Origin: Telopea speciosissima
Lineage: Eukaryota > Streptophyta > Magnoliopsida > Proteales > Proteaceae
Assembly (NCBI RefSeq): GCF_018873765.1
Contig: NC_057924.1
Location: forward strand, 5,642,001 to 5,706,000
DNA length: 64,000 nucleotides
Reading direction: 5' to 3'
Made by a program: the position numbers and the translations under genes. Of this stretch, positions 18,524-57,192 are shown in pieces (the stretch's first letter is position 1; each line of letters starts with the position of its first letter). Under the pieces are notes generated by a model, which did no database searches, was not told where the DNA came from, and saw nothing but the letters and a program-made list of their open reading frames with translations.

Positions 18524-21500
18524 CAAAAGCTCTAACAATCATATTGTTTTACAACTTTACATCCCTAATCATAAGATCTATAAGTGCCTCCATTTGTCAC
18601 ATTAATAAGTGCCCCTTTTTTTCAAGGCACCATTCAATTTGATGCGATGGACATAGATTGTCTAACAAATTATTTATTCATTGGTCCAAAGAGGTGATAA
18701 AATAATGTTTGATTTGCCCTTCTCTAAAGAAATTTTTATAAAGCTTGATGTAGCAGACACGATATGGAAGTGACCTACTGATCTTTGTGACCACTCAATA
18801 TCGGATGATCATGACCATCTGATCCATCCTATCATGGATTTAATTCCATGGGTAGGCCGAAAATGGGTTCCTCTAGGCCAGGAAATAGTTACAGTCCGCA
18901 ACTTACATCCCAGTTCCAAACTTTTATTTTGATTTCTAATAAACTCCGACCATTCAGCCACAAAATACATAGTTGGAGTTGCTTTCAGGCATGGGATCAA
19001 TCCTCCAAACCCCAAACTGATTCCATTTGAATCAATTAAGTTTCCATATTCTTTTCACTCACAAAAATACCCTAAAACAGAACATCCTAGAAGAAACTTT
19101 GCTCGGCAAATGGATCATGGGTTGTTATTGTTGGAAACTTGTGTGACAGTTTTTCGTGGTACTCTATAGGTTTTTAGATGATATGCAAGGGATGTGGCAG
19201 CCCCGGCAAAGATAGACGGTCAGTTTGTAGTGTAGACAGATCAATTTGGTGCAAACAGGTTTAACATTATTATAGATGTTTCCAGATAGAGTTGATAGAT
19301 TTTGAAAGCTTTGACAGGCTTATTACATGTTTATAAATTATTTGGCAGAAGACCAAAGCAATAGGTGAAGGCCCCATACAATTAAAGTTGGAATTTCATA
19401 GGTCAATGCATTGACAGCCACTTTGGTGCAAATTTTAAAAGGTTTAATGAAAAAATTGGGCAATGTAATATTCACGAGAAATGTAGTTCGTTGAGTCTTA
19501 GTTCCAAGGCAACTTGTTTCACATCATTCTGATCTCGGGCGGAAGAGTTATGGCAATCTCCGTACGACTGCGCAAAAAATGAGTAAATTGAGAGAGTGTG
19601 AAGGAGTTTAAGATAGCTATTGGAAGTTTTTCGTGCAAAAGGATGTTTATTAAAGTGTCTCACAGCGTTCTGAACATTTTTTATTTCAGGGAAAATCTCA
19701 AAATTCGAGGTAAAACCTCGTGCAACATGATAGATTCTATTTCGTGCAGTCTGGTAGCCTGGGAGATCCTTTTAAGGTGTCTCTGTCATACAGTATCAAA
19801 CTGTGGATGGTCCAGATTGAACGATTCCGTTTGAACGGATTCTGTGAAGATAAAAAGGTTGGGGACGGTGTAGATACCAGCGATTGTTTTCCTATTGGTT
19901 CTGCACATCGAGCCTTTGTATGCCGTAGAGCACTTTATGATCCCTCTGATACGGTATGTCGAAGGGGCAATATTTCTCTCTTAAAGATTCTATTTTTACT
20001 ACATCTATTAACCACCATATTAGGAGTCTGATCTTACGTCTGAGAGTAAACAGAACCACATAACCTTTCGTAGTCCCTGATCCTATGATGCTGAGGCGTA
20101 CTTTAATCCATATAAGATTCTTATCTATACGTTCTGGTTTACCCCGCATTTACCTGACCCGATCTTGAAGATCTGACAGCCCTTATTGAACCCACATTTG
20201 AATATGCCGATCGGACGACCTAGAATGCATCCGACCTTCCTTGTGACGCACGGTAATGCACGTCGTCCCTCGTGAGTGATGTGATGTCACGAAATCATTA
20301 GAAAATTTACAGAAATACCCCTGGTTCGCCGGGTTTCACTAAAACTAGGATATCTCACTCGTTTTAACTCCGTTTTGTGATCCGGGAATTGCTGTGCACT
20401 CAAAAAAACGAAAGGAACGTCTATGTGAAGAGAAAAACGTATAAAAATGTACATACAACATGGATTTCACAGAGAATATTTCAATGACGATTGCTCGATC
20501 CACGTGCACATGGAGGAGTGTGCAACATACTGATTTACCTCCAGAGACGCTGCTGAGTTTGGGAACACCCAGGAAGAGGTATTTCAGATCTGAGAAACCC
20601 TATTCCAAGGTTTTGAAAGGTTTTAGCTGTTGGACACGGTTGTTTTGATCATCGTGGCACATATAGTTTGATTCCTACGCATTGGATACTGCACCACACT
20701 TTTTTTTCCCGATAAAATGTAGTGCGCCACACTCGAGTGGATAAAAGTTCTAACAAAAGTTGCCATGAAATACGGTGCAAAGTTCAATAAAGATCACAAG
20801 AGGGATCATGGGAGTCTTAAGTTCCATAGAGATCACAAGAAAGGGCATGGAAGTATGTGTTGTTCTCTTATGATTGTCAAAAACAGCCCAAAATTTTCAA
20901 AATCATTACGTTGGTTCATTGGTCCTCTTTACTATGAGTATGTAGTGGCTAATAGATGGAATACAAATAGAATCTTTAAGATAGAAATATTGCACCTGCG
21001 ACATACTGTATCAGTCGGATCATACAGTGCTATACGACGTACCAAGGGTCGATGTGCCGAACCAATGGGAAAAATTTTGATGGTATCTACACCGTCCCCA
21101 ACCTTAGTATCTTCACAGAATCTGTTCAAACGAAATCATACCATCTTGGCCATCCTTATATTGATACGGTACGATAGAAACACCTTAATAGGATCCTCCT
21201 GGCCTACCAGATTGCACGAAATAGAATCTATCATTTTCATGAGGTTTTACCTCGAATTTTGGGATTTTCCTAGAAATAAAAAATGTTCAGGTGGATGTGA
21301 GATATTTTAATAGACATCTATTTGCAGGAAAACTTTTAGTAGCTACCTTAAACTCGTTCACATTCTCCCAATTTACTCAATTTCTGTGCAGTCATACAAA
21401 GATTGCCATAACTCCTCCGTCCTAGATCAGAATGACGTGAAACAAGTTGCGGTGGATCTAAGACAGTAAGACTCCACGAAATACATTTCTTATAAAGATT

Positions 21501-22467
21501 ACTTTGCCCAGTTTTTCAATTAAACCTTCTAAAATTTGCACCAAAGTGGCTGCCAATGCATTGACCTATGAAATTCCAACTTTAACTGTATGGGGCCTTC
21601 ACCTATTGCTTCGGTCTTCTGCCAAACATTTTATAAACATGCAATAAGTCTGCCAAAGCTTCCAAAATCTATTAACTTTGTTTGGAAATATCCGTAACAC
21701 TATTAAACCTTGTTCGTGCCAAATTGATCTGTCTGCAACTGTGAACTCATTGTCTATCACTGCCAAAGCTGCTACATCCCTTGCATATCATCTAAAAACC
21801 TTTAAAGTACCACCAAAAACTGCCACACAAGTTGCCAACAATGACAACCCATGATCCTACCCAACAAAGTTACTTCTAGGATGTTCTGTTTTGTGGTATT
21901 TTTGTGAGTGAAAAGAATCTGGAAAACTTAATTGATTCAAATGGAATCAATTTGGGATTTGGAGGATTGATCCATGCCTGAAAGAAACTCCGACTGTATA
22001 TTTTGAGGCTGAATGGTCGGAGTTTCTTAGAGATCATTAAAGTTTAGAACTGGGCAGTAAGTTGCGGACTGAAACTAGTTCCTGGCCTAGAGGTACCCAA
22101 TTTTGGCCTACCCATAGAATTAAATCCATTTTAGGATGGATCAGAGATGGTCACGATCATCTCATATTGACTGGTCACAAAGATCACTTTCATATTGTGT
22201 CTGATCCATCTAGCTTCATAAAAATTTCTTTACTTTAGAGAAGAGCAAATCACACATTACTTTATCACCTCTTTGGACCTATTAATAAATAATTTGTTAG
22301 ACAGGATATGATCAAACACTCAAACTGGTTCAATCTATATCCAACGCATCAAATTGAATGGTGCCTTAGAAAAAAGGGCACTTATGAATCTGACAAGTGG
22401 AGGCACTTATAGATCTTATGATTAGGGATGTAAAGTTGTAAAACAATATGATTCTTAGAACTTTTCC
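18524..22467. repeat. Large inverted repeat, two arms of about 1.5 kb around a 0.9-kb spacer
   Basis: The left arm (about 18524-20025) and the right arm (about 20936-22467) are reverse complements along their length with scattered substitutions and small indels. Matching pairs include TTTTACAACTTTACATCCCT near 18548 with AGGGATGTAAAGTTGTAAAA near 22430, and GGTCAATGCATTGACAGCCA near 19401 with its reverse near 21558. Peptides such as KVGDGVDT and ALYDPSDTVCRRGNIS appear on the + strand in the left arm and on the minus strand in the right arm, but neither is a known protein. The spacer (20026-20935) has no recognised gene. It may be two LTR-like copies in opposite orientation or a foldback element; transcription through it would give a long hairpin RNA. 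Confidence 0.85.
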
Positions 22468-35951: not shown

Positions 35952-36688
35952 CTTCAAATTAGGGCAGCAACAGGGTCAGGTTGGGCTGGGCTTTATAAAA
36001 CCCTAGCCCAACCCTAAGTCCCCTAAGCTGGGCCCAGGCCCGACTCGACCATGACTCAGGTTCTAAAATATCCAACCCTGACCCACCCTCAGGGTCGGGT
36101 CGGGCTGACCCTGACGGGCCTTGATAATGGGGAAGGGGAAGGAAATGCATGGGCTGTAATGGGTTGGGGAGAAAATTATCCATTTTTCGTAAAATAACAC
36201 TATAATTAAATGTATTATATCACTTATTATCTTCATATATAATATATTATATAACAAAATGTGGGTGATATTTAAAGTTTATAATATATTTAGGGGAAAG
36301 TTTTCATACACGGCTGTGTAAGCTGTGTATGTGAGAGGGTGGGAGTTTCAAGGCATTAATAATGGGTGGCGGTTTATGACTTTTCCAACTCTTTGTGAGA
36401 GGGGACACGACCGTGCATGCTTACACGGCCGTGTATAAAAACTTTCCCTATATATTTGTTATATCAATATATATTTTTTAGTATAACTTAAAACAGGATC
36501 AGGTTGGCCGGGCTAGGCTTAGCCTGAGGCCACAACCCTAGCCCGACCCGATCCTGACTCAGGGCCAGAAATTTCCAGCCCTGACCCGCCCTCAGGGCCA
36601 AATATTTCAGCCCAAGCCTTGTTCGGGCTCAGGGCGGGCCAGGGTGGATTCGGGCCGACAAGGCCAAACTTGTACCCCTACTTCAAAT
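35952..36688 (+). mobile_element. Non-autonomous hAT-type element, GGGCTGGG family, copy 1
   Basis: The element 35960-36680 begins TAGGGCAGCAACAGGGTCAG and ends CTTGTACCCCTA. CTTCAAAT flanks it perfectly on both sides (35952-35959, 36681-36688). Both ends are dense in GGGCTGGG/CCCAGCCC words and the centre is AT-rich (ATATAATATATTATATAAC). A second copy, inverted, lies at 58979-59675. A smaller MITE is nested inside at 36292-36449. Confidence 0.88.
36284..36457. mobile_element. MITE nested inside the GGGCTGGG element
   Basis: The 158-bp element 36292-36449 has inverted ends AGGGGAAAGTTTTCATACAC and GTGTATAAAAACTTTCCCT, with CGGCTGTGTAAGC answering GCTTACACGGCCG. ATATATTT is repeated perfectly at 36284-36291 and 36450-36457. 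The inverted copy at 59 kb lacks this insert, which confirms its limits. Confidence 0.88.
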
Positions 36689-37896
36689 CAATATATTTTT
36701 GATTTTTTAGAATAAAACAAAGGGCAAATAAAAAAGGTGTCAAATTCCAAATGCAGCAATGGAAGTGTCATTCTAACACACATCCTTTAATTTATGATTG
36801 CACTAAATACCCAGAATTGCAAACTTAGTCACGTAACTTGCATTAACTTCTGTGTTTCTCTATCTTTTGCTTTCCATGTCATCCTTTTGTCATGTGCGTA
36901 TAAAAATGTTGTTGCTATGATAGGAAAATAAAATTAGAATGAATTCCCAATTAGGATTTAAATGAAACACAAAATTGGAGTGTTATAATGATAAAACAAT
37001 TTTTTTGAATGATAGTTACAACATATTAATTCTCTTTCTATGTTAGTAGATCAGCGAAAATTCCCACGGGCAAAAACAATAGTAAATCCAAATTTTTTCT
37101 GTTCTTATTTCTGAACTAGGATATCTAATGCAAATTTTCAGATACTGAAAAATTATTTTTATTTTTTGTTTCTCATTCTCTTATAAGCTAGATGAAAAGA
37201 AATCCAAATCTAGTCATGAGATGGTGGAGGAAATCGATGAACAGAGTGACAGCGATAGATGATCGCAACCCCTTTGGTTGAATTGGTGATGCAGCTTCTC
37301 TGGTATTCGTGTTCTCATTTCTTTCTGTTTCTTTTCTGGGGGGAATTAATTGAAGGGGAGAACATGGAGTTAATCCACAATCTTGACCTGGGCCTGATGA
37401 AATAATTATAAATTGCAACCTGGACAACATACTCATGGTTAAAGAAAGAATTTTACTTTTGAGGGGAATTCCTGTTCATCTGTGATATTCTTCGGGGGGA
37501 AATATTAAATAATTTATGGACGGTTGTACACTAAGTATCGAATGCATATTGATTTGACAATATTAACTGAAGATGAAGTCAAGATAAAGTTCAAAATCTT
37601 CAACATGCACCCCGGTTACCCAATGAACTGGTGGAGGATTGCGACTCGCTCATGAGATCTAATAGATGAAGACAATTTAATCAGCAATGTCAGTGAGAGG
37701 TTAACCACTTTACCCGACTAAAATTAGTCTTTGTCCCTCCCCTTACTCGACAATCGCCCTAACCAGGAATGAAGTTCCAAAAGTGATTTTCTTGGAATCA
37801 CCACCGCGATAATTGAATTTCTAGTTTGTACTGTGACTTTGTACTAAAGTCTAAAAATATAGTCTGTACTTTTGTTTGAGTTTATTACGGTGAACA
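36689..37896. other. Non-coding tract beside the Copia fragment
   Basis: No motif was found in the short frames. It contains no recognisable LTR or reverse transcriptase of the Copia element whose integrase part begins at 37897, so that element is cut off here. Confidence 0.4.
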
Positions 37897-39115
37897 ACAA
37901 ATACCCATTTGCACCCGACTGGTTTCTTACCCGAAAGAAGAACAACTAGCTCCCATGTCTCATTTTTAAGTAAGGCCGTCATTTCTTCCATCATGGCTGC
38001 TTTCCACTTTGGATCTGCAATCGCCTCCTACCATTTCTGAGGAATAGAAACAGAGGAAAGAGAAGAAACAAATGCACGATAGGAAGGAGATAAAGCATCA
38101 TAGAAAACAACATTGGAGATGGGGTGTTGGGTGCATGACCTAACGCCTTTACGAACAGCGATAGGTAAGTCAAGGGAAGGATCCTTACCAGATGATGTAG
38201 TAGGGTCTGGATCTGGATCAAGTGCAGACGATTGTGGAGGTGGTATGGTGGTGGTGGTAGTCTCAACTTGTCATGTGCGCTCCTGGGTATATACCTTATC
38301 AACAGGGATTTGACTGACTGGTCTATGCTCCCCCTAAATAGGAGCCACTATAGGAGCTGAAGTTACAGAGGGCTTCCCCTGAATAGAATCCGGAAGAATA
38401 GCAGACACATCTTCAAAACCCTGATCCTGCTCCCCCTGAAGAGGTGTCTGGGAATAATATGACAAGGACTCATGGAAGACAATATCCATGGAGACAAAAG
38501 TACGACGAGAAGGTGGATGGTAACACTTGTATCCTTTCTGGGTCGCAGAATAGCCCAGAAAAATACACCGAATGCTCCGTGGATCAAATTTCCCATGAGG
38601 ATGATGATTGCGGACATAGCCAACACAACCAAAAACTTTGGGGGGAACCACAAAGGAGGAGGAACCCTGGAGGAGATCAACGGGGGAACGACCATCAAGG
38701 ACACGGGTAGGCACACGGTTGATGAGATAAGCAGCGGTAAGAATGGCATCACCCCAGTAGTGAGAAGGAACCTGCCGTGCAAACATAATGGCCCGGGCGA
38801 CCTCAAGGAGATGTCTATTTTTCCTTTCAGCAACCCTATTCTGGGCAGGTGTGTCAACACAGCTGGTCTGATGGACAATACCATGTGCAGCCAAATAAAG
38901 TTGGAACTGACCCTCCATGTACTCTCTGCCATTATCACTGCGTAAAATGCGCAAGGTGGCATTGAATTGGGTCTGAACCATACGATGAAATAACTGAAAA
39001 CAGCGGAAGACCTCACTTTTATGGCTCATCATGTACACCCAAGTGGCACGAGTATAACAATCAATAAACGAGACAAACCATCGATGACCAGAAAGGGAAG
39101 TACAACGGGCAGGGC
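37897..39115 (-). pseudogene. Copia pol, second part (integrase to start of RT), truncated
   Basis: On the minus strand this continues the Copia frame interrupted by the Gypsy insertion: RCTSLSGHRWFVSFIDCYTR, then ILRSDNGREYM (second catalytic Asp) and NRVAERKNRHLLEVARAIMF (catalytic Glu). Next come KVFGCVGYV, RCIFLGYSATQKGYKCYHP and the linker. Two in-frame stops follow (at 38334 and about 38272). After EAIADPKWKAAMMEEM and the RT start KPVGCKWVF (37899-37922) the similarity stops, so the reverse transcriptase and RNase H are missing. The first part of this element is at 52483-54043. Confidence 0.9.
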
Positions 39116-41947
39116 TGTTATACCCGTACCCCGGGATATAATTAAATATCATTTCTTCTCGTGACGTGTAGATACCGCTGCCATGTATGCTGGTGACCTG
39201 TTCTCCATGATGGTCAAACCTAGCTACAAAATCGTTGACCACAAGACGGGTTTGCCTCGTGGAGGAAAGATTCCTCAACCGCCTGGGAAAGTTCGTTGTG
39301 GCGACTTCGTCGACTACCCTCCAAGTACCAGCCCGGGAAGCGAGGAGTTCAGGAGAGAGCATCTCGGACCGTCACCTCAGCTGGATATTTCGTTCGGTGA
39401 TGAGCTTAGCGTTGCCGTGGCGAAGCTGTTCGGGGTCATGGGTAATAAACCATGACAGGGGGGGAAAAGTAAGTTCTAGCCTCAAGTCTTATTAATTATT
39501 CTTCCCTTGGTAACCTCGAAGTGCGGGTCCGGGCTTGAACCGCTCGAGCTATTTCATGAGAGAAGGGAATAAATTAAGTTCGGGTCCCGCGTACCTTTAG
39601 GAAGTACATTGGGGACTTATACCCATCTCATATGAGCCCATCTAAGAATGGGCTTTTCCTTAATTAAGGTTGTGGGCAGGCCCATTTAACCTATTGGCCC
39701 AATGATGGGTTATTCCATCCACTTACCCACATAGGACTAATGGGTTGACCCATTAGGCCTCATGACCCATTTGACTAAGGGTACCCATAGACCCATTTAT
39801 TATAAAGAGAGGAGGAGGGGGAGAGAACATTACTTCTTCTTCAACATCCTCTTCTACCCTAAATCGTGGAGGAGAGAAAGAGGAGAGAAAGAGGAGAGAA
39901 AGAGAAGGAGGAAGGAGAGAGAGGCTTGGAGGAAGGTGGAGACCCCATCTCTTGGGCAGAAATTGTGGAGCTCTCATCTTGGGGGTAGGTAAGCTTCTTC
40001 CTTCTTCTATTTTGGATTTCAAAAAAGGGGTTGGGTAATGGGAGAGATTGACCTAGATCTCTCTTGGAACCTAGGGAGTAGATGGAGCTTTAAAGCCAAG
40101 CTATGGTGGAGTTAGTTTACTCCATTATGAGCTCTAATGTGAGGGTTCTCATTGCCATTTGGGGGATTTAAGGTTGGACCCTAAGGAGCTTAGGATAGAG
40201 TTTTCTAGAAGTCCTTGTGCCTTAAAAACCACTTGAAATGGGGTCCTTGGAGGGAATCCTTCGGATTTTGGACTCGAAGGTGTGAGGGTTACATGTGATT
40301 TCGCACTGCAAGAAACCCCCGAAACTACCTTCCCGAGAAGGATTACGTGAAGGTCGGATTTACACTCGGATTCGCTTTTTACGAAACCACATCCGCATCC
40401 GACCTTGGCAAAAATTGTCCCGAGCCCCGTGAAGCTCGGATTTACACTTGGATTCAGTTTTTCGAAACCACATCCGCATCCGACCTTGACTAAAAGCTGT
40501 CCCGGTTTCCTAGGATTTACATGTGGTTGCAGAATTTGGGCATGAAACCACTCCTGCAACCACTTCGTCTCTGAAACCTTATACTTAAGTGTTTATGGGA
40601 GATCTTTTGGGGATCCGTTCCTTTCGCTCGTTTAACCTTATTCCACTCTTTGTATAGGTTAAAATATTCACTTTTGTGGCTTATTGCTTGATCGAGGCGA
40701 CAACTGATAAACTGGGTGCTTGGCGTATACGTTGTGAGTGGGTTTGGTTGTTTGGGCTTGTTATTACTATTGCACTATATATTATGTACTCATTATAATT
40801 AATAAGCATGTGTGCGCATATTGCATAATTTTATATCTATGTGTTATAATGTTGATTGATAATGTTGTATCTTGATGGGTCTCGGTGCGGTGGATACGTC
40901 GTGGGAACCCGAACTCTATAAACATTTATGAAGAAATTATGTTGAATGTCATGTTGAATCAGCGCGCGTGCTCGTCTTGTAACCGGCACTAAACCGGATG
41001 AAAAGTTGATGCGCCCGGATTACCTCTCGGGACGATAGGACTTGCATGTAGTATATTGTGGCTAGGATTTCACACCCTTATGCTACGACCCTTACCAACA
41101 GGGGTTTAGGTGTTGGGTAATCAGTACACCGGATTCTGTGGAGGTGGGAGAGGCCAGTCATGGTAGTATTGGTTATCAGGGGTCTGCCACTGAGTGGTCT
41201 TGGAGGCTTCGATCGGCGTAGGTCCCACGTGACAATTGAGGTTTCATTGTGGCGATAAGTTAAGTGACCCACAGTGTCTCCCGAGTTGTCACAGTAGCAT
41301 ATGCCATTGACTTAGTTGTTTGTTAGGTGGAAAAATGAACTTAACATGTGCATGCATCATTGGACTATGTGAATTGCGTGTTTGTGCATTCCCATCCCCT
41401 CACTGGCTCAGTGGAGCTAACCCCCTCGTGCGCACATTTTTTTGATTATGGTGCAGGTGACGGATATCTCGCGGGACTTGGAGTTCAGCCCTCGGGATAC
41501 GATGAGATCGGTGAGGAGGAACCGGAGGCCGTGTTTGAGGAACATGGCGACAGGTGTCCTTGCGATGATTGTGCCTACGGGCCGTGAGGATATTCGGGAC
41601 TCGATCCCTTTTTGATTACTTTTGAGGCTAAGGCCTATGGTGAAATACTTACTGTAATACCATTTTTGATAGTTATTAGATGATCATTGGAAATGTAACT
41701 AATTCATCGTATTTATCATCTAGCTTTGAACATCTTGTAACTATTCGATTTATACGCTTCCGCAATACTACCGATCCTTGGAATGTAATATTCCTCTTTT
41801 CGCATTCGATATTATATTGTGTTAATATTGGATATGAGTATGCGTTGGGACACGTGTCGGTGATCCGGCGGTTTAGTAGGATGACACGCGTCGTCCTAGT
41901 CACCCTTTATATGATATTATATTCTTTGTCGGAATAGGGGCGTGACA
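39116..41947 (+). repeat. 5' LTR of the Gypsy element
   Basis: It runs from TGTTATACCCGTACC to GGGGCGTGACA. It contains a (GA)-rich tract near 39867-39926 and two tandem units of about 90 bp at about 40346-40520 built on GGTCGGATTTACACTCGGAT and CCACATCCGCATCCGACC. TATTATAAAGAGAGG near 39798 could be the TATA region. Compared with the 3' LTR, long stretches are identical, while differences cluster at CAG, CTG and CG positions. Confidence 0.95.
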
Positions 41948-41951
41948 GGCG

Positions 41952-41962
41952 TGGTATCGAGC
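41952..41962 (+). other. Primer binding site, tRNA-iMet type, one base short
   Basis: TGGTATCGAGC starts 5 bp after the 5' LTR. The usual plant iMet PBS reads TGGTATCAGAGC, so a single A is missing from its CAG. The missing base matches the CAG-to-CG pattern seen between the two LTRs. Confidence 0.8.
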
Positions 41963-42339
41963 GAGATGCTGCACCACCATGCCTAAGCGGAATTGTGATT
42001 TACTCTACACAATAGGTTGCTAAAATAAAAGCTTCTAACAATGCATAATTGAATGTGTGTGAATGCTAGGGAGAAGGCTAGCTTAGGAGAAAGCCGAAGA
42101 CAATAGCAAATAATAGGTACAAAGAGTGGAAGGAAAAGACATGTGTATATATTTATAGATATATTCCTTAGGTTCAGTTGTTAATACATTTCCATAAGCC
42201 AAATGAGTGATTACAACAAAATTCAGCTGAACTGTAGACTTCGAATTCTTACAACCAAGAAAAAGAAAAATAAATTTGCTGCATGGTAAGACAAAAAGCT
42301 AGGGGTCCATTGAGAGCATGGTGGGAATGGACAGGAGGT

Positions 42340-44470
42340 CTACTGCTCCATCTCATCATCACTACTGGGCTCGTCCTCTGTGCCCTCATCATGGAGGTAG
42401 GAGTGCAAGTCCTCCATCGCGCTCGAGGCTCTCCATGCGTCTGCCTCGATGCATCGAGCCTAGTGTTCACTCCTTCAAACCCCGAGCCATGCCGGTGCTC
42501 ATCCGGCCCGAGTTGCAAGAATCCTGTCGATGTCGACCCACTAGGAGCAATCTCGGATGAAGAGGCCGCATGCACGGCCGAGGAGGAGGCTCTGCACCGA
42601 GGCTCGGGCCCGTGACCTCTGCTGGGACCAATGGCTCCCCATCACTATATGCATCCATCGCACTGCATCCTCGCCACTGCGTTACGATCTAGAGGTGGAT
42701 CTTCGGTTAAGTCTTGATCCTCCTCACTCAAGTCAACTCCAAAATGCTGGAAAATAGTAGTGAGCAACCTCCCATAGGGTAAATCTAAGTTCCTCCGGGA
42801 TTTCGCCCGCATGATCCATGGTCCACATGATAATGTAGGGCGAGCAGATGGGGATACCTTTGTAGAGGTGATAGGCCACATAGCCTACGAAGATGGAAGG
42901 CATGGTGCGGTGACCGGCTATAGGCACGATGTTGGCTTGCACAATCCGACTCAATATCCTGGGAGAATTGGCAAAAGAAGTCTCGGCACTTTCTTCTCGA
43001 ATGCCCCACGTGTAAGCTCCCTGTATAACTCCCCGTATGCCTCTCTCCGAGAAAGGAGTAGGGATTCTTCCATGGTGCGCAGAGGTCTTCTCTTCCCGAG
43101 ATAGCTACATTGAGGATGCGCCAATGCGTGCCCCGTGAAGGATATGGTGACTCCCTTGACATAAGAGAGGATCCGGTAATCTCGTGTGCCTAGGTTCTCG
43201 GTGTGCAGGTTGGCGTAGAAGTGACGAACGAGCTTGGGATAGAATGGCTCTGGAAGGTTGAGGAGGTTGGACCACCCCAGTGCTTCAAATCTCGGCCCTA
43301 CCTTGTAGGCCTTGAGGTCTTCCAGTACCACATCTCTTCCCTCCAAGATATTCTTAAAGCGAAAGTGGTCTTGGTACATCTCCTGTTTCTCTAGGTCTTG
43401 GAACCATTGCGTATCCAAAGCAACTGGGGCAGCTTGTTCGGCCCGTGCACGCCTTGTTCTAGGAGCCATTTAGATTCCCTAATCTGCAACCAAAGAAGGC
43501 CGAGAATACAGAAATATATTAAGTCCATGCTTGGATATTAAGGTCTAAGCAGATATACAATGAAACGAGACAAGGAGTTAGAACCTAGACCTTGATTTCT
43601 ACAACAGATTAACCAAATTACAGCAGGGAATGTACTAGGAAAAGTTTGTTGTGAATGGTCTAAGGAGTTAGGGAAAAGGGGAATGCATGGCCAACATGTA
43701 GATGCAATCATAGAGGATAAAAGTACATGGCCACATTTATGCTTGGAGAAGCATTATATCATACAAGCAATTAGTTCAAACAAAGTTGGACTGATTTGAT
43801 AAGAAATATACTAAGAGATCCAAAGAGGAAATTTTCAGTTTTGTGTTTGGAAGTTGAATGACATGGTAAACAATATACATACATGGCCATAGTACACCTA
43901 ACACATGAAGTTTATACTAAATACCTAGTTCAAGCAATATATGGAGCTAAATTGTGGTAAATAATGCTTGAATCTCTAAAAGAAAATTCAGATGTGATTC
44001 TTGAAGTTCCAATTTGCAAGAAATAAATAAGTAATGGCTTGAGACAACCCCAAATTATATACACCAAGCCTACCTAGCAAAACCGAACTTGAATTGGGCA
44101 AAAAGACATAGAATTTCGGTTAGGGTTTGGGGATTTCTCCAAAATCCAACCCAAACCCTTGGTGATGGTGCAAGATTGGGGGAAATGCCCCAACTAGGTT
44201 GCATATGAAGGGAAACGAAGGTAGGATGGACAAAAATCCATCTAAATAGCTAGGAGAAAACAAAAAAAACCCAAATCTTGTAAACCCGAAATGGATTTTG
44301 GGGTTTCTCCATAATAGAAGTCGAAAGGAGAAAGAGATAGATCGATAGAGAGGGAAGAGGGCATACCTGAACTCGATCGGAGCTGTTGTGCGTGGATTGA
44401 GTGCCAAAAATCCACCTAGAAGGGAGAGGGAGCAAGGAACGAGTGCGGTTTTGGGTTCTCCAGAGCGTAG
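42340..44470 (-). CDS. Antisense, probably spliced gene for a plant transposon-type protein inside the Gypsy element
   Basis: The coding part runs on the minus strand from ATG at 43469 (MAPRTRRARAEQAAPVALDT) to a stop at 42340-42342. The middle matches what I know as the 'putative plant transposon protein' domain (Transposase_32 type): LGWSNLLNLPEPFYPKLVRH, FYANLHTEN, LSYVKGVTISFTG, then after a frameshift RIVQANIVPIAGHRTMPSIF and LPYGRLLTTIFQHFGVDLSE. The C-terminus is acidic (DEGTEDEPSSDDEMEQ). Upstream is a CT-rich leader ending in a donor CAG|GTATGC (44367/44366) and an acceptor TTGGTTGCAG 14 nt before the ATG (intron 43484-44366). At least two frameshifts interrupt the frame as given. 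It sits between the PBS and gag, opposite to the retrotransposon. Its function is unknown; antisense extra ORFs are known from other plant Gypsy lineages, mainly Tat. Confidence 0.7.
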
Positions 44471-44529
44471 GGGGTGTTTAGAAATAGGAATTTGGGTTTT
44501 GGAAGTAGAGTTTCGAGTTAGAAATTCTG

Positions 44530-44690
44530 TTTTGGACCATGCGGTTTTACACTCGGATGCAAGATTTTGAATCCGACTGTGAATCCGCGGATTCCCGAGA
44601 CCAGCCTTTGGTCCTGTGAAGGTCGGATTTACACTCGGATGCAGCCTAGTGAAACCGCATGTAAATCCGACCCTGCCAGAAAAGGTTTTT
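44530..44690. repeat. Copy of the LTR's GGTCGGATTTACACTCGGAT repeat upstream of the antisense gene
   Basis: The exact 20-mer GGTCGGATTTACACTCGGAT at 44621-44640 is also present in both LTRs (40352-40371, 50884-50903). Related words (GGTTTTACACTCGGATGC at 44544, GAAACCGCATGTAAATCCGA at 44650) fill this stretch. It lies just before the presumed start of the antisense transcript and before gag. Confidence 0.8.
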
Positions 44691-44879
44691 TGGCCCTGTT
44701 TTGCTTAACCAACTTGTTTCTAATGTTTATTACCCTCATAATTGCTTCCCTTACCCCTCGTGTAACCTATGTTTACCTTTGCAAATCGATTTTTTTGATT
44801 GGTTTGCTTAATATTGCAATTGTGCCTATAACTGTGGGTGTTGACTGTAACCAGTGTGAACCATGGTTAATACACGGTC

Positions 44880-46200
44880 AAATGCCAACCGTTCTCCGCT
44901 AGGGAAGAGGCCGGTGAGGCTTGAATACGGTTCTACCGGTAGCACCGCCAATTAGTAATAATGCGGATGTCGCCGCGTTGTTGAGCAATAGGTTGCAATC
45001 CATGGAACGAGAGCATAGGGAGGCGCAACAAGAGCAGCGCCAATTTATGCAAAACATGACGGCTATGTTCCAAGCCTTTGTTAGGGAAAGGCGCCAGTGC
45101 CTCCTCCGTGCAAGTCAATCCTCCCCCACCCCCGTGGGTTCCGCTGCACCTAGTGTTCCTCTCGGCTCAAGCCACCGCCGGAATTCCTTTGACACAAGAG
45201 GTGCCAGCACCTATTCTACCTTCCACTTCTGTGGCTCCTTCGGTCCAAGCGGTGACTCCGGCTTGGGTGGATGCTGCTAGGTTATCGGAGAGATTTCAGA
45301 AACATCGTCCTCCAACCTTCTACAAGATGGCCCATGATTCCTTTTTCCCGAGCAACATTTATAAGGGATCTTGAGAGAATCTTTGAAGTGATACGATGCA
45401 ATGACACGGACAAGATCCGGTGTGCTACCTACCAGCTCGGGTGATTCTCGATGCGTGGTGGCTCTCCTCTAAAGACCATTTTTGGGCAACTCACCCAGAG
45501 GCAACTTGGGCTCAATTCAAGGAAGTCTTCTTCAAAAATTTCTTCCCTCAAAACTTTCGTGATAGGAAGGAGTCTGAGTTTATGAGCTTCTTTCAAGGAT
45601 CCAAATCGGTCCTTGAGTACCAAGCAAGCTTTTGAGGAGCTGTTTTACTTCGCCCGGTACACATGAAGGCCGAGAATGTGAAGGCTAGGAAGTTTGAGAA
45701 GGGGCTTAGACCTAGCATTAGTACTTCGTGGTGCTACACAAGTACCCTACTTACGCCGAGACGGTCCAGCCGCTAAGGTGATTGAGGACCAAGAGAGAGA
45801 GAATTACAGGCCATTCAGTGGTAAAAGGCCCATGACCTCTCACGAACCTAGGGGATCCACAAAATTCCAAAGGAGAGGATCTTACACTACTACTTTTTCG
45901 GTCCAGTCCCGGGAGGTCGGATGCGGTGCAAGCACCAGTGCCTACATCAACTCCTCACTATGGTTCCTGGACTCTTATATGTTACAATTGCAAGGAGTCC
46001 GGGCATATGGTTCGAGACTGCCTCATCCGCGGATGATAGGTCCTCCAGTGCAGCTACACAAAAGGCACCCCAAGCCAAGGCGATTGTGCGTTCTCTTCTT
46101 CCTGCTCCGGCCCATAGATCTCAAGGTCGGGTGTATTCTCTGACAAATGAAGAGGCCCAGGCCGATCCCGAGTGTTATTACGGTAATGCACTCTACTCTT
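44880..46200 (+). pseudogene. Gypsy gag (frameshifted)
   Basis: Successive frames encode a gag: an N-terminal coiled region (LLSNRLQSMEREHREAQQEQ), RFQKHRPPTFYKMAHDSFFP, then the retrotransposon gag domain (WWLSSKDHFWATHPEATWAQ, FKEVFFKNFFPQNFRDRKES, GSKSVLEYQASF). The zinc knuckle CYNCKESGHMVRDC is at 45980-46021. Indels split the gene into at least five frames. The start is near 44880 but is itself affected by an indel. Confidence 0.85.
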
Positions 46201-46259
46201 AAGATGTGCATATAATAGCTTTTGTTTCTATGATTGGTTGTCTGTTGCTTGTCAGTGTC

Positions 46260-49200
46260 GTTCTTGTTTGCTCTCCGCTTATGCTTTATTTGATTCGGGG
46301 CATCACACTCTTTTGTGTCCCCTAGTTTTGCTAAGAAGATGTCCATTGAACCAAAGCTAATGGCCCGTAAACGATAGTCAACACCAACGGTAGCAAGGTT
46401 GAACTTAACTCGGTTTATGATCCTTGCCCGGTATGTGTGGGTGGTCACGGACTCAAGCAAGCTTAGTACTGCTGGATATGAAAGACTTTGATGTGATTTT
46501 GGGAATGGACTGGCTATCAACTCACAAAGCCAGCCTAATGCTTCGAGAGGAAGGTTCTATTCAAACCGTGAAGGTGAAGAGTTTGTGTTTATGGGTACTA
46601 AGCGGGAGAGACCCAAGAAAGTTATCATCTCGCCTCCAAGTACAAGTTGTTGGAGAGGGATGTCGTGTTATCTAGCATCCGTGATAGACCGAAGCCAAAG
46701 GCGAGCCTTTGGAAGAGTTGTACGTGGTGAAAGACTTTCCGATGTCTTTCCCGAGGATCTAACGCGGTTGCCACCGGATCGCGAGCAGAGTTCATGATAG
46801 ATCTCGATTCCTGGTGCAGCCCCAGTATCAAGGCACCTTACGGGATGGCCCCAATCGAGCTAAAGGAGCTACAAGAGCAGTTGAAGGACCTGTTGAAGAA
46901 GGGTTTCATTAGACCCAGTGTATCTCCTTGGGGAGCACACTGTGTTGTTTGTGAAAAAGAAGGACGGTAGTATGCGTCGTGCATTGACTACCGTGAGCTC
47001 AACAAATTGACAATCAAGAACCGGTATCCTTTGCCTAGGATCGATGACCTATTCGATCAACTACAGGGTGCGAAGGTGTTCTCGAAAATTGATCTCCGGT
47101 CAGGGTACCATCGATTGAAGATCGAAATAGTGATATCAGCAAGACAAGATTCAGGATCTCGCTATGGTCATTATGAGTTCTTGGTCATGTCCTTCGGCTG
47201 ACCAATGCCCCGGCGCCTTTATGGAGTTGATGAACCGGGTGTTCCACGATGTTCTAGACAAGTATGTCATTGTCTTCATTGATGACATCTTGGTCTATTC
47301 CAAGAGCGACGAGGAGCATGCGGACCATCTCCGCCTAGTATTGCAACGCCTAAGGGAGAAACGGTTGTACGCCAAATTCAAGTAAGTGTGAGTTTTGGCT
47401 ACAACAGTGGCATTCTGGGACACCTTGTTTTCGGTAAGGGTATAGAGGTTGACCCTGGCAAGGTGAAGTCGATAGTTGATCGGGCGATACCCAAGAATGT
47501 GGCGGACATTCGTAGTTTCCTGGGACTAGCGGCTATTACAGGAGATTTATTGAGAACTTCTCAAGGCTCTCCGCTCCTATGACACGGACCGACCCGAAAG
47601 GGAGTGAAGTTCGAGTGGTCGATAGCTGTGAAAAGAGCTTCCAAGAGCTCAAGCGAGGCTGGTTTCCGCTCCGGTATTTACCATTCCTAATGGTACTGGA
47701 GGGATGGTAGTCTACAAGATGATGCATCTAAAATGGGCTTGGGTTGTGTTCTAATGCAAGATGGGAAGGTAGTGGCCTATGCTTCTCGGCAATTGAAGGA
47801 CTATGAGAAGAACTACCCGACCCATGATTTGGAGCTTGCTTGTGGTTTTCGCTCGAAGATCCTGGAGACATTATTTATATGGTGAGAAGAGCGAAATATA
47901 CAGTGATCACAAGAGCCTCAAATACTTCTTTACACAAAAGGAGCTCAATATGAGGCAGCGACGGTGGTTGGAGTTGTTGAAAGATTATGATTGTACTATC
48001 CATTACCACCCAGGCAAGGCAAATGTAGTAGCGGATGCGCTGAGCCGGAAATCTCAGTCCTTGTCACTGGCATCACTAGCAGCCAGTGAGAAACTCATCG
48101 AGGAAGCTAGAAGGATGGACCTGGAATTACTGGTTGATGGTGTTACCTTATCTCTATCAGCTTTATCAATACAATCCACACTGGTAGGGCGAATTCAATC
48201 AGCCCAGGCTTCTGATGAGGAGATTCAAAAGGTTATTGAGGCTATCAAGGGGGACACGCAGCGGGAACTGGATTTTACTTTAACAGAGAGTGGTGTTCTC
48301 ATGTTCAGACAACGGCTATGTGTTCCTAGTAACCCTCAGTTGAGGAAGGAAGTGTTAGCTGAGGCCCATGACTCTCCCTATTCTATTCATCCAGGTAGTA
48401 CGAAGATGTATAGAGATCTGAAGGAATATTACTGGTGGAGTGGAATGAAGAGGGATGTGGCTGAGTATGTGGCAAAATGTCTTACTTGTCAGCAGGTGAA
48501 GGCGGATAGACAGCGACCTCATGGCCTCTTACAGTCATTGCCTGTTCCAGAGTGGAAGTGGGAGCATGTTACCATGGATTTTGTCACCGGGTTGCCCCGC
48601 ACGCCTAGAGGTGTCGATACCATATGGGTTGTCGTTGACAGATTGACAAAGACGGCTCACTTCATCCCCATGAAGATTACCTATTCGATGGACAAGCTGG
48701 CTCGCTTGTACATTGATAATGTAGTTCGTCTACACGGAGTTCCTGTCAGCATCATCTCCGATCGGGATCCCAGATTTACATCTAAGTTCTGGGGAGGGTT
48801 TCAGAAGGCAATGGGTACACTGTTGAGTTTTAGTACAGCCTTCCACCCTCAAACCGACGGACAGTCGGAGAGGACTATTCAGACATTAGAAGATATGCTC
48901 CGAGCTTGTGCCATTGATATGCAAGGCAGCTGGGACGAGCATCTCTCACTTATTGAGTTTGCTTACAATAACAGTTACCAGGCTACTATAGGCATGGCAC
49001 CGTTTGAGGCTCAGTATGGGAAGAAGTGTCGGACACCGTTATATTGGGACGAAGTAGGTGAACGGCGTATTCTTGGACCCGAGTTGATTCAGGCAACATG
49101 CGAGAAGGTGGACTTGATTCGTGAGCGGATCAAGCGGCTCGACCCAGGCGAAGGGTTATGCGGACTTGAGACGGAAGGACCTTGAGTTCACCGTTGGCGA

Positions 49201-49645
49201 TAAAGTGTTCCTTAAGGTATCACCCTCCAAAGGGGTGATGCGTTTCAACAAGAAGGGCAAGCCGAGTCCGAGATTTATAGGACCTTTTGAGATCCTTGCA
49301 CGGATTGGACCGGTGGCATATCGGTTAGCACTCCCTCCATCTTTAGAAGGTGTGCACGACGTCTTCCACGTGTCTATGTTGAGGAAGTATGTCCATGATC
49401 CAAGCCATGTATTGACGCATGAACCACCGAACTTGCGCCGACATGTCCTATAAAGAGTGCTGAAAAGATTTTGGACAGCAAGGTTGTTCATCTTCGCAAC
49501 CGGCCCATTCATTATGTGAAGATAAAATGGTGCAACCATCAGGAAGAGGAAGCTTCTTGGGAGGCGGAGGTAGAAATGCGGGCGAAATACCCTTTTCTTG
49601 CCTATTTACAAGGTACGTCAAATTTCGAGGACGAAATTTCTTATA
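46260..49645 (+). pseudogene. Gypsy pol: protease, RT, RNase H, integrase, chromodomain (frameshifted)
   Basis: Protease: LFDSG then, one base short, ASHSFVSPSF (from about 46287). [34 protein letters not shown], the catalytic VFIDDIL at 47272-47292, then VDPGKVKSIVDRAIPKNVAD. RNase [21 protein letters not shown], then [20 protein letters not shown]. Integrase: zinc finger with H, H and CLTCQQVK, catalytic [15 protein letters not shown] and [10 protein letters not shown] chromodomain follows at about 49460-49600 (HYVKIKWCNHQEEEASWEAE). RT and protease carry many one- and two-base indels, while about 47870-49140 is one clean frame. Not functional as written. Confidence 0.92.
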
Positions 49646-49656
49646 AGGTGGGGGGA
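49645..49656 (+). other. Polypurine tract
   Basis: AAGGTGGGGGGA directly precedes the TG of the 3' LTR, the expected position for plus-strand priming. One T interrupts the purines. Confidence 0.85.
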
Positions 49657-52477
49657 TGTTATACCGTCCCAGGATATAATTAAATATCATTTCTTCTCGT
49701 GACGTGTAGATACGCGCCATGTATGGTGACTGTTCTCCATGATGGTCAAACCTAGCTACAAAATCGTTGACCACAAAGACGGGTTTGCCTGTGGAGGAAA
49801 GATTCCTCAACCGCCGATGGGGAAAGTTCGTTGACGGCGACTTCGCCGACTACCCTCCAAGTACCAGCCGGGAAGCGAGGAGTTCGGAGAGAGCATCTGG
49901 ACCGTCACCTCAATTGGATATTTCGTTCGGTGATGAGCTTAGCGTTGCCGTGGCGAAAGCTGTTCGGGTCATGGGTAATAAACCATGACAGGGGAAAAGT
50001 AAGTTCTAGCCTCAAGTCTTATTAATTATTCTTCCCTTGGTAACCTCGAAGTGCGGGTCCGGGCTTGAACCGCTCGAGCTATTTCATGAGAGAAGGGAAT
50101 AAATTAAGTTCGGGTCCCGCGTACCTTTAGGAAGTACATTGGGGACTTATACCCATCTCATATGAGCCCATCTAAGAATGGGCTTTTCCTTAATTAAGGT
50201 TGTGGGCAGGCCCATTTAACCTATTGGCCCAATGATGGGTTATTCCATCCACTTACCCACATAGGACTAATGGGTTGACCCATTAGGCCTCATGACCCAT
50301 TTGACTAAGGGTACCCATAGACCCATTTATTATAAAGAGAGGAGGAGGGGGAGAGAACATTACTTCTTCTTCAACATCCTCTTCTACCCTAAATCGTGGA
50401 GGAGAGAAAGAGGAGAGAAAGAGGAGAGAAAGAGAAGGAGGAAGGAGAGAGAGGCTTGGAGGAAGGTGGAGACCCCATCTCTTGGGCAGAAATTGTGGAG
50501 CTCTCATCTTGGGGGGTAGGTAAGCTTCTTCCTTCTTCTATTTTGGATTTCAAAAAAGGGGTTGGGTAATGGGAGAGATTGACCTAGATCTCTCTTGGAA
50601 CCTAGGGAGTAGATGGAGCTTTAAAGCCAAGCTATGGTGGAGTTAGTTTACTCCATTATGAGCTCTAATGTGAGGGTTCTCATTGCCATTTGGGGGATTT
50701 AAGGTTGGACCCTAAGGAGCTTAGGATAGAGTTTTCTAGAAGTCCTTGTGCCTTAAAAACCACTTGAAATGGGGTCCTTGGAGGGGAATCCTTCGGATTT
50801 TGGACCTGAAGGTGTGAGGGTTACATGTGATTTCGCACTGCAAGAAACCCCCTGAAACTACCTTCCCGAGAAGGATTCGTGAAGGTCGGATTTACACTCG
50901 GATTCAGTTTTTCTGAAACCACATCTGCATCCGACCTTGGCAAAAATTGTCCTGAGCCCCTGTGAAGCTCGGATTTACACTTGGATTCAGTTTTTGAAAC
51001 CACATCGCATCCGACCTTGACTAAAAGCTGTCCCGGTTTCCTAGGATTTACATGTGGTTGCGAATTTGGGCATGAAACCACTCCCGCAACCACTTCGTCT
51101 CGAAACCTTATACTTAAGTGTTTATGGGAGATCTTTTGGGGATCCGTTCCTTTCGCTCGTTTAACCTTATTCCACTCTTTGTATAGGTTAAAATATTCAC
51201 TTTTGTGGCTTATTGCTTGATCGAGGCGACAACTGATAAACTGGGTGCTTGGCGTATACGTTGTGAGTGGGTTTGGTTGTTTGGGCTTGTTATTACTATT
51301 GCACTATATATTATGTACTCATTATAATTAATAAGCATGTGTGCGCATATTGCATAATTTTATATCTATGTGTTATAATGTTGATTGATAATGTTGTATC
51401 TTGATGGGTCTCGGTGCGGTGGATACGATGTTTAACCCGAACTCTATAAACATTTATGAAGAAATTATGTTGAATGTCATGTTGAATCAGATGCGCCGTG
51501 CGTCTTGGTAACCGGCACTAAACCGGATGAAAAGTTGATGCGCCGGATTACCTCTCGGGACGATAGGACTTGCATGTAGTATATTGTGGCTAGGATTTCA
51601 CACCCTTATGCTACGACCCTTACCAACGGGGTTTAGGTGTTGGGTAATCGATACACCGGATTCGTGGAGGTGGGAGAGGCCGATCATGGTAGTATTGGTT
51701 ATCGGGGTCCGCCACCGAGTGGTCTTGGAGGCTTCGATCGGCGTAGGTCCCACGTGACAATTGAGGTTTCATTGTGGCGATAAGTTAAGTGACCCACAGT
51801 GTCTCCCGAGTTGTCACGATAGCATATGCCATTGACTTAGTTGTTTGTTAGGTGGAAAAATGAACTTAACATGTGCATGCATCATTGGACTATGTGAATT
51901 GCGTGTTTGTGCATTCCCATCCCCTCACTGGCTCAGTGGAGCTAACCCCCTCGTGCGCACATTTTTTTAGATTATGGTGCAGGTGACGGATATCTCGCAG
52001 GACTTGGAGTTCAGCCCTCGGGATACGATGAGATCGGTGAGGAGGAACCGGAGGCCGTGTTTGAGGAACATGGCGACGGGTGTCCTTGCGATGATTGTGC
52101 CTACGGGCCGTGAGGATATTCGGGACTCGATCCCTTTTTGATTACTTTTGAGGCTAAGGCCTATGGTGAAATACTTACTGTAATACCATTTTTGATAGTT
52201 ATTAGATGATCATTGGAAATGTAACTAATTACTGTATTTATCATCTAGCTTTGAACATCTTGTAACTATTCGATTTATACGCTTCCGCAATACTACTGAT
52301 CCTTGGAATGTAATATTCCTCTTTTCTGCATTCTGATATTATATTGTGTTAATATTGGATATGACTGTGCGTTGGGACACTGTGTCAGTGATCCGGGCGG
52401 TTTAGTAGGATGACACGCGTCGTCCTAGTCACCCTTTATATGATATTATATTCCTTGTCTGGAATAGGGGCGTGACA
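49657..52477 (+). repeat. 3' LTR of the Gypsy element
   Basis: It runs from TGTTATACCGTCCCAGG to GGGGCGTGACA and pairs with 39116-41947. The duplication AGGGC follows at 52478-52482. Confidence 0.95.
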
Positions 52478-52482
52478 AGGGC

Positions 52483-54043
52483 CCCACACATCAGAATGAA
52501 CCAAAGCAAAAGGAAACTCACTTCTTTTATTTAATGAAGAATAACTGGAACGAGTCTGTTTGGCCAAAACACAAGCCTCACATAAAAACTCATTCCTATT
52601 ACAATGCTTAATCAAGCTCGGAAACAAAAGAGACAAAGTACTAAGGGATGGATGACCAAGTCGGCAGTGCCAGAGATGAAGGTCAGGGGACGAGGTGGAC
52701 TGTAAATGATGAGCTATAGAGGAAGCCGAATGCAAAGTAGAAGGCTGACCCGGGTCAAGTAAGTAGAGACCACCCTGCATCTTACCACCCCCAATCGTAC
52801 GCCCCGTCTCCAGATCCTGTATGACACAATGAGAAGGGAAAAAGGTCAGTTTGCAATTCAGATCTCTAGTGAGACTACTAATAGAGAGAAGGTTGGTAGA
52901 AAAGGACGGAACATGCAAAACAGATTTTAATGAAAGGGTAGGGGAGCAGCGTATGGAACCCTTCCCATTAATAGGAGAAAGGGAACCATTAGCTACTCGA
53001 ACACTGTCTTTGCCAGAAGATGGAGAATAAAGATGAAATACATGGGAGGAGCCAGTCATGTGGTCAGTGGCACTGAAATCTATAATCCAAGGACTGGATA
53101 CAGCCGATGCACACAGACTACTGACTGGAGTACCTAAGGCAAAATTAGAACCAGGAGGGGCAGCAGGTGTAGATGCCGTAGTGGAGGCAGCGGAAGAGGC
53201 CTGTAGCATGCGACGAAAAGCTAGGAGCTCATCCTGAGTAAGCCCAATGTCAGATGAAGGGGCAGCAGCAGCAGGAGTAGGAGAATCAGCCATATGAGCC
53301 TTGGGCTTAAACTTCCCACGGGCTTTCTTTTTCTCAAAATCAGCAGGCTTCCCATGGAGCTTCCAGCATTGAGCCTTAGTATGATAGAGCCTGTTGCAGT
53401 GTTCACACTTGACAGGACCTTTAGAGACAGCAGTACCACCATCAGTAGTGGTAAGAGAAGGAGTACTGGAAGCAACTTGCAAGGCGGAGCGATCAACAAT
53501 GAGAGGAATGCAAGATAACACCGACGAGATTCCTCATTATGAACTAAGGCAAAGGCCTGTTCTAGGGATGGAAAAGGGGACTGCCCAAGTACTTGCACCC
53601 GAATAGGATCAAACTCCATATTTAGTCCAGCCAAAAAATCATAGACACGTATTTTGTCAACATGTTTGCGATAGGCAGCCAGATCGATGTGAGAGGGGCG
53701 ATAGTCGAGTAATGATCCAATTGCTGCCACATGTTCTTGAGGGCACCATAGTATTTGGAGACAGAGAGCTCCTGTTGGGTAGTGGCATTAGCCTTCTTTC
53801 TAATCTCATAGACCTGTGCATCATTCCCCGTGCGACCATAAGTCTCTTTGGCACCATTCCAGTGGGCAGTGTCCAGTAGAAGAAAATTGTCTCTTTGGCA
53901 CCATTGCCAGATAGTATGGGCGAAAGTTTTTTGTGGTGGTGTGATGTGCGCTTGTTAGCAAAGGTCCAAAATACCTTTTTAGGTTCAATTGAAGGGTCAG
54001 ATCGGTGGGTGAAGGAAAACTCAGTCATTGATGAGCTTGACAA
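52483..54043 (-). pseudogene. Copia gag, protease and start of integrase, interrupted
   Basis: On the minus strand, gag begins about 54043 (MSSSSMTEFSFTHRSDPSIE) and continues in shifted frames with LLDTAHWNGAKETYGRTGND and HVDKIRVYDFLAGLNMEFDP. The zinc knuckle CEHCNRLYHTKAQC lies in the frame 53521-52436. The protease box reads WIIDFSATDHMTG, where Copia proteins have DSGATDHM, so the active-site Ser-Gly is changed to Phe-Ser. The GAG-pre-integrase LWHCRLGHPS and the integrase start HSDVWGP follow, cut by the Gypsy target duplication. No Copia LTR was found on this side. Confidence 0.9.
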
Positions 54044-55764: not shown

Positions 55765-57192
55765 CTACGGATTGCGAAAACATATTTTAGTTGCGAAATA
55801 ACGCTTGGCATCGGCCCAAAACGGACACAGACACGGATCGCTCTCGCTAGTTAAGAAATTGACAACCAATGAACCCCGATGTGCCTTCAACCGATCCGTT
55901 CCAAAACAAGTTACCCTGCAATGCCACATCGTCACCGTGACCAAATTAGGGCAACCACGAATAAGCGCTTCCAGCCCAAGATCGGTGACAGGGCAGAACA
56001 TGATACAGAGATTCTTCAATGCGATGCAATTAGCAGCAATGCACGAAATCACAGCATCACCAATCTTGTGACTCCTACACAGTGCTAAGCGCTCCAGATT
56101 CTGGAAATTGGCAGCGAGCAGATCCAATTTTAAAGAAGTAGGATTGGCACCAAAGATAATCAATTCCTCAAGGTTAGGGCACCGTTTGGTAATGACAGTA
56201 ATCCCCTCCTTACCTATCTCTTTATCGATAGTCCTTGACCAATTATAGAGGTGGAGTTCCCTCAATTGCTTGCGGTGATCAGCGATGGACACAAGCCCTG
56301 CATTCGTGCAATTGGGAGTCTCAGCAAGGTGCAAGATCTCCAAATCCAAGCAATTAGAGATAGAAAAGAGGGCGGCATCGCTTATTGGGATTGTCTCCAG
56401 ATGTATCTCAACCAGACCGATGAGTTGTTGTTCTACTACTATGGCGGTTTCAAAGATCTTATCTCAATCCCCAGAGCAGAAGGCGATCTTCAAGGTTCTG
56501 AGATTCTTGGAGCCCAAAATCAACGGTTCGAAATTACCGTTATAGGGCTGCTTGATGCAGATGGTCTTAAGAGAGCAAGCAGCCACACCTGGTCCGATAG
56601 GAGTAGAACTAGTGTCAGCAAGGCCGCGAGGATACTCGACGGAGAGCACTTCGAGGGAGGAACAGTGATCGAGGATAGCATTGATGCCCTTGGCACCAAA
56701 GTTTCAGAAATCAATACAATGGAATTCCTTTAAAGTACCCTTGGAGTTGAGGGCGAAAGTAGCAATGCCTACATCGGTCAACTGTTGGCAACAATGGAGC
56801 TTGAGGCAAGTGAGGTTAGGACAGTGGAGAGAGATGAGGACAAGAGCTTCGTCACGGATGGGGATGTATTTGAATCTGCCGTGGGGATCGGATTTGAGGG
56901 CAAGTGTGGTGACGGCATTGAAGCGCGTGAAGAGAGAAGGGATGATAGGGAGGAAATTGGATTTGGGTTCAAGGGAGAGGCGATGACGGAATTTACCCTC
57001 GACCCGGAGCCAATTGCGACAGACAAGAGAGCAGTTTTCAAGGTCGAGGAAGCCCAGGAAGTTGAATATGTACGCCAGGCACTCGTCGGGAAGGTGGGAC
57101 GACAAGTGCAGACGAGAGCGGGTCGTCATTGTGTTCTTCTTCTTCTCCTCCATGTTAATTTCCTCTGTTTTCTTCGATATCTGCTGCCTCAT
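55765..57192 (-). pseudogene. F-box/LRR protein of the SKIP2/VFB type with two in-frame stops
   Basis: F-box proteins of this type bind SKP1 and act as the substrate receptors of SCF ubiquitin ligases. The single frame spans about 476 codons without any frameshift. An N-terminal F-box (LPDECLAYIFNFLGFLDLEN, LVCRNWLRVEG) is followed by leucine-rich repeats: CPNLTCLKLHCCQQLTDVGI, GPGVAACSLKTICIKQPYNG, CPNLEELIIFGANPTSLKLD, and NLERLALCRSHKIGDAVISC. The end is TSESDPCLCPFWADAKRYFA. Order, spacing and lack of introns match Arabidopsis SKIP2 and VFB1-4. Two TGA codons interrupt it: at 56704-56706, where the family has Cys before N-F-G-A-K-G, and at 56464-56466, where it has Trp (CSGD-W-D-K). It is a young pseudogene or carries two sequence errors. 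A gene-capturing MULE sits 62 bp upstream of the frame. Confidence 0.88.

Follow-up and report, generated by a model that had tools for sequence, protein, structure and literature searches.

A gene remnant antisense to gag-pol, with a Transposase_32-type match and a predicted leader intron, in a chromovirus of Telopea speciosissima

The role of the extra open reading frames (ORFs) of plant long terminal repeat (LTR) retrotransposons is a standing question in the field. The stretch of DNA analysed here, subsequently called the window, comprises 64,000 nucleotides of Telopea speciosissima (GCF_018873765.1, contig NC_057924.1, 5,642,001 to 5,706,000 of the forward strand) and harbours a Ty3/gypsy LTR retrotransposon with a chromodomain, which carries between its primer-binding site (PBS) and gag a gene remnant on the strand opposite to gag-pol (focal stretch, positions 42340..44470 of the window). 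This antisense gene remnant is real and well-formed and resides in an unusual host and an unusual place. All evidence on it derives from the sequence of one element copy.

The chromovirus and the antisense gene in its leader

Between PBS and gag, a coding region extends on the minus strand from an ATG at 43469 to a stop at 42340. The first open piece from this ATG comprises 172 codons, and its residues 63-137 match the Pfam family Transposase_32 (PF20167) with E 7.4e-10 and 39.4 bits (gathering cut-off 45). The coding sense subsequently shifts between three minus frames until the acidic end DEGTEDEPSSDDEMEQ* is reached. In a first-order Markov control of the same 1130 bases, an ORF starting with ATG and of at least 172 codons arose in any of the six frames in 29 of 2000 sequences; the profile match is stronger evidence for the antisense frame than this chance control of ORF length. 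A sequence search of the PDB returned three chance-level matches, the best with E 1.2.

The ATG is preceded by a predicted GT-AG leader intron (44366-43484), which is well supported by splice-site ranking and base composition. Scored with approximate matrices, the donor at 44366 (CAG|GTATGC) and the acceptor whose last base is 43484 both rank first on the minus strand of 41947-44900, and the composition shifts coincide with the predicted intron borders, with a GC content of 53.8% in the coding part, 36.8% together with 39% T in the intron (measured over 43490-44366) and 53.5% in the leader exon. Beyond the antisense stop, a T-rich stretch extends almost to the PBS, so that the antisense gene occupies the leader of the element. 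The location of an antisense gene between PBS and gag, its leader with an intron shortly before the ATG, the Transposase_32-type domain, the acidic tail and the chromodomain host had all been proposed in a previous sequence-only reading of this DNA and are recovered here, the intron on sequence and the domain by profile search.

Two other candidates were dismissed. A 194-codon ORF on the minus strand (44120-44704), which runs across the leader, the intron start and the upstream region, is not considered a gene, its sole Pfam match being a chance-level one to UPF0524 (E 0.18). Equally, the 12 top-scoring donors and acceptors of the plus strand in 41947-44900 offered no convincing pair for a sense intron across the antisense gene.

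The host element spans 39116-52477, with the target-site duplication AGGGC located on either side at the edges of the LTR alignment (Table 1). Its two LTRs share 96.95% identity in this alignment, which has 2851 columns with 68 substitutions and 31 gap events. Between the LTRs, gag, zinc knuckle, protease, reverse transcriptase, RNase H, integrase and chromodomain follow each other in the Ty3/gypsy order, with ordered Pfam matches to RVP_2, RVT_1, RT_RNaseH, Integrase_H2C2, SH3_Tf2-1 and Chromo (E 2.6e-6), an rve match below the curated cut-off and, in one profile run, no Pfam match for two of the nine gag-pol pieces. As this domain order terminates with the chromodomain at the integrase end, in an element with two LTRs, target-site duplication and PBS, the host element is a chromovirus of the Ty3/gypsy group. 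It probably belongs to the Tekay lineage. The tRNA behind the PBS is presumably the initiator-Met tRNA; no tRNA genes were found in the 64-kb window. The chromovirus itself interrupts a copia-type element on the minus strand, with an integrase part at 38334-39371 and a gag-protease part at 52436-53533, both parts being named tentatively from their translations.

Table 1. Features of the antisense gene and its host element, in window positions
Feature	Position	Strand	Basis
Antisense coding region, 1130 bases, ~376 codons, acidic C-terminus, frame broken	42340..43469	-	three minus-frame translations
Transposase_32-type domain, first part (PF20167, profile 2-79 of 177)	43059..43283	-	Pfam
GT-AG leader intron, 883 nt, ends 14 bases ahead of ATG	43484..44366	-	top donor and acceptor; composition
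Leader exon 1 of antisense gene, putative start	44367..44480	-	GC 0.535, C-rich on minus strand
Putative 3' untranslated region, T-rich	41990..42339	-	GC 0.354, T 0.389 on minus strand
Tandem pair of 82-bp dyad units, 5' LTR	40346..40509	+	TRF 40346-40504, period 82, 1.9 copies; alignment
Two 82-bp dyad units, LTR-related, upstream of antisense leader	44534..44697	.	spacing 82; alignments
82-bp dyad units, 3' LTR	50878..51041	+	alignment
Target-site duplication AGGGC, left	39111..39115	.	LTR alignment edge
5' LTR, begins TGTTATACC, ends GTGACA	39116..41947	+	LTR alignment
PBS resembling initiator-Met tRNA complement	41952..41963	+	by eye; with a departure from the tRNA complement
gag-pol, broken, chromodomain at end	44866..49640	+	Pfam pieces; ends approximate
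3' LTR	49657..52477	+	LTR alignment
Target-site duplication AGGGC, right	52478..52482	.	LTR alignment

The explanation favoured for these features, with about even confidence, is that the remnant represents an accessory gene of the chromovirus (probably Tekay), placed antisense in the leader between PBS and gag, driven by a promoter of its own and encoding a Transposase_32-type protein behind a leader intron. The unit would consist of this promoter, a 5' untranslated exon, the 883-nt leader intron, a single coding exon of around 376 residues and a 3' untranslated region, with transcription possibly starting within the region around 44480-44700. That a spliced antisense gene needs its own promoter had been argued in the sequence-only reading, and this logic is accepted. 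As the intron is antisense to the genomic RNA, it would be hidden from the splicing of that RNA and thus survive retrotransposition, so that the antisense orientation is what would permit an intron-bearing cargo gene to outlast reverse transcription. Intron-marked reporters as described in PMC12786077 carry the intron in the sense of the element, where it is removed by splicing, and the antisense leader intron may be seen as their converse.

Frame damage in the antisense gene

A feature beyond the sequence-only reading is that the antisense frame is broken, so that this copy as sequenced cannot encode the whole protein. To follow the coding sense through its 1130 bases takes at least four frame switches (3.5 per kb), compared to 21 in 4775 bases of gag-pol (4.4 per kb), and by this break density the antisense frame seems no older ruin than gag-pol. 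Higher densities, of 6.2 to 17 frame switches per kb, are obtained for the opposite strands, the intron and the LTR, and the copia stretch 36500-39110 has 8.4 per kb when read on its coding strand and 12.3 when read on the reverse one. Equally few frame switches as in the antisense region were required by 14 of 2000 first-order Markov controls. The antisense frame is coding-like and is damaged about as much as gag-pol. The breaks may be sequencing errors: 26 of the 31 gap events between the LTRs concern a single base, with 8 of these 26 adjoining an identical base, and this richness in single-base gaps may indicate assembly noise, against which the unrelated host ORF at 264-1784, open across 506 codons, has to be weighed.

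The broken frame, seen in a single copy, would also fit a one-off passenger, that is, a Transposase_32-type fragment of another mobile element or of a host gene that came to lie antisense in this copy alone, or in a small subfamily, and does nothing for the element. Such an origin is considered rather unlikely, even though other plant elements carry the domain, as reported for a sunflower Athila extra ORF (PMC11728184), and extra ORFs of plant elements have been judged to be independent acquisitions from several sources (PMC6317226). The gene is bracketed by an imperfect 23-nt direct repeat (74%; 42180-42202 and 44866-44888), which is most likely due to chance but is found at positions at which an insertion might have left a trace. 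On the other hand, the unit is complete with leader, intron and 3' end, occupies the leader nearly from the PBS and shows a level of damage that equals and does not exceed that of gag-pol, and none of the 23 inverted-repeat pairs in 41900-44900 (11-19 nt in length, with the 82-bp unit described below contributing a 30-nt dyad) is positioned as the termini of an insert. Equally, the antisense RNA rather than the protein might be functional, with a transcript over the leader that controls sense expression via double-stranded RNA or interference, a role named in reviews for antisense transcripts of LTR elements (PMC7264820; PMC12786077). This appears very improbable, as coding frame, domain and leader intron would be superfluous and the frame is kept better than chance according to the Markov controls above.

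Dyad units common to the LTRs and to the sequence upstream of the antisense gene

A further feature beyond the sequence-only reading is an 82-bp dyad unit. Each LTR contains two of these units, and two more lie ahead of gag, immediately upstream of the antisense leader. Compared with the four LTR units, internal unit 2 shows an identity of 75-81% (z 12.9 to 16.1 relative to shuffled sequences) and internal unit 1 one of 70-79% over shorter alignments (z 4.7 to 5.7), with the corresponding units of both LTRs being 93% and 99% identical. As the internal units are more diverged from the LTR units than those are among themselves, they have probably been separate through many rounds of transposition. 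A first core pattern with up to three mismatches, for which internal unit 1 is too diverged, has five matches in the window, all five in the LTRs or internal unit 2 (0.00 expected), and all six occurrences of the 9-mer CGGATTTAC in the window fall in the LTRs or the internal stretch; the 7-mer TCGGATT is found 8 times outside the element. No match of comparable quality to the 82-bp unit was detected elsewhere in the window, where local scores of internal unit 2 reach at most 31 versus 83 and 73 with the LTR arrays.

Upon RNA folding of four units, a hairpin forms in each, clearer for the internal units (z -4.6 and -5.1 against shuffles) than for the 5' LTR units (z -2.8 and -1.7). An alternative, rated as less likely than not, is that the units have a structural part in the genomic RNA, in packaging, dimerisation or the folding of the leader, and are unrelated to the antisense gene. 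The internal units indeed fold far better than their shuffles, two-sided change is seen in 5 of 19 pairs of the consensus fold, and both arrays would fall within the sense leader if transcription started at a TATA-like site near 39801. However, the position of this start is conjectural, the consensus has an unfavourable covariation term (+1.17) and folding cannot separate RNA from DNA dyads. For the reality of the antisense gene, this alternative is irrelevant.

Under the accessory-gene explanation, a candidate target of the protein is provided by the dyad units, which are present both in the LTR and upstream of the antisense gene; the protein would act in trans, most likely in the nucleus, upon the DNA or RNA of its own element. 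The shared units would couple expression of the antisense gene with expression from the LTR, and the product is perhaps a nuclear regulator. A more specific proposal, deemed quite unlikely, is that the antisense protein binds the dyad units in the LTR and its own promoter as a sequence-specific regulator and either limits the element or switches it on, with an anti-silencing activity like VANC in VANDAL elements. VANC is an element-encoded protein reported to act on tandem motifs of its own element (PMC12844716, PMC5735166), and the combination of an element-encoded accessory protein with tandem motif arrays in noncoding parts is shared (PMC5735166), which is an analogy only; unlike the present element, VANDAL elements are DNA transposons, with no known relationship between the proteins.

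Several observations weigh against the favoured explanation as an accessory gene, beginning with the restriction of the evidence to one element copy. The Transposase_32 match remains below the gathering cut-off and, within a single open piece, covers 78 of the 177 positions of the profile; hence the domain is named 'Transposase_32-type' and not a family member. The remaining minus-strand pieces submitted to Pfam gave no match to Transposase_32, and the AlphaFold2 model of the 172-residue piece alone has a mean pLDDT of 33, a structure unusable as the basis of a fold search. With the patterns tried, a TATA box was not found on the minus strand of 44367-44880. Of 2426 other windows of this length, taken from the two strands of the 64 kb, 138 match or beat the antisense region on frame switches, and the first 40 of these listed fall within a host gene, the integrase or copia genes. 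With another core pattern of the dyad unit, shorter than the first, eight matches are obtained versus 1.14 expected, one of them outside, at 3191, with three mismatches. Finally, with respect to an action of the protein on the units, the 82-bp units are only a candidate target.

A tblastn search of the 64-kb window for another copy of the antisense gene gave chance-level matches only. With respect to relatives, the collections of contigs are little informative: a viral collection, which holds viruses, gave no pattern match for the antisense piece and 11 for the integrase piece, none of them confirmed, and a genome collection of prokaryotes gave 51 for the antisense piece, equally with none confirmed.

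Relation to known extra ORFs and neighbouring sequence

The sequence-only reading had considered the antisense gene a candidate for an undescribed system. This view is not supported, as antisense, 5' reverse and Tekay 5' extra ORFs are already in print (PMC7264820, PMC6317226, PMC11728184). Published examples exist of antisense ORFs, of Tekay 5' extra ORFs and of an Athila extra ORF with Transposase_32; their combination, an antisense Transposase_32 gene in a chromovirus, was not found in literature searches on extra and antisense ORFs, the domain and the lineages, which covered title listings and selected passages.

The closest parallel in host and place is the 5' extra ORF of sunflower Tekay, reported in 500 of 523 elements and without known domain (PMC11728184). 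In sunflower Tekay 13-2, it equally lies between 5' LTR and gag of a chromovirus and has a product of 402 residues; unlike this ORF, which is in (+) orientation and described as domainless, the present gene runs antisense, contains a leader intron and shows a Transposase_32-type match. Further Tekay 5' extra ORFs are named for rice RIRE3, RIRE8 and Retrosat-2, maize and sorghum (PMC11728184). With respect to the domain, a partial match to PF20167 is shared with the extra ORF(+) of sunflower Athila 14 (PMC11728184), whereas Athila is a non-chromovirus and its ORF lies in sense orientation in the 3' part.

Antisense extra ORFs have mainly been reported between pol and the 3' LTR (PMC7264820). 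In Grande, the antisense ORF is driven by a promoter of its own and its product is nuclear, and in Retand it has a Transposase_28 domain (PMC7264820); antisense ORFs with Transposase_28 are described for 97% of Retand clusters, with a product predicted to bind DNA (PMC11963269). The present gene resembles Grande gene23, RIRE2 and Retand ORF4 as an antisense accessory gene, in Grande with promoter and nuclear product and in Retand with a transposase-named domain (PMC7264820, PMC11963269). Unlike here, those genes sit in the 3' part of their elements, which are of the Tat type.

In the REXdb survey, extra ORFs of plant elements were sorted by end and orientation, with 5' reverse among the classes, and 314 similarity groups were distinguished in Ty3/gypsy elements (PMC6317226). 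As an extra ORF in the 5' part and in reverse orientation, the antisense gene is like the eORF-5'R class; however, the survey demanded at least 250 open codons, internal and outside gag-pol, and with 172 codons as the longest antisense ATG piece this broken copy would go uncounted.

The antisense intron-bearing gene together with the repeated dyad common to its upstream region and the LTR constitutes a concrete candidate pair of protein and target site. If other copies agree, the range of antisense accessory genes, which comprises the 3' end of Tat-type elements, would come to include the 5' end of a chromovirus.

Elsewhere in the window, 18525-20015 and 20945-22465 form an inverted pair of around 1.5 kb with 84% identity. 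The 506-codon ORF at 264-1784 is located on the plus strand and presumably encodes a plastid SufB-type iron-sulphur assembly protein, and 55765-56463 on the minus strand is presumably a piece of a leucine-rich-repeat F-box-like host protein.
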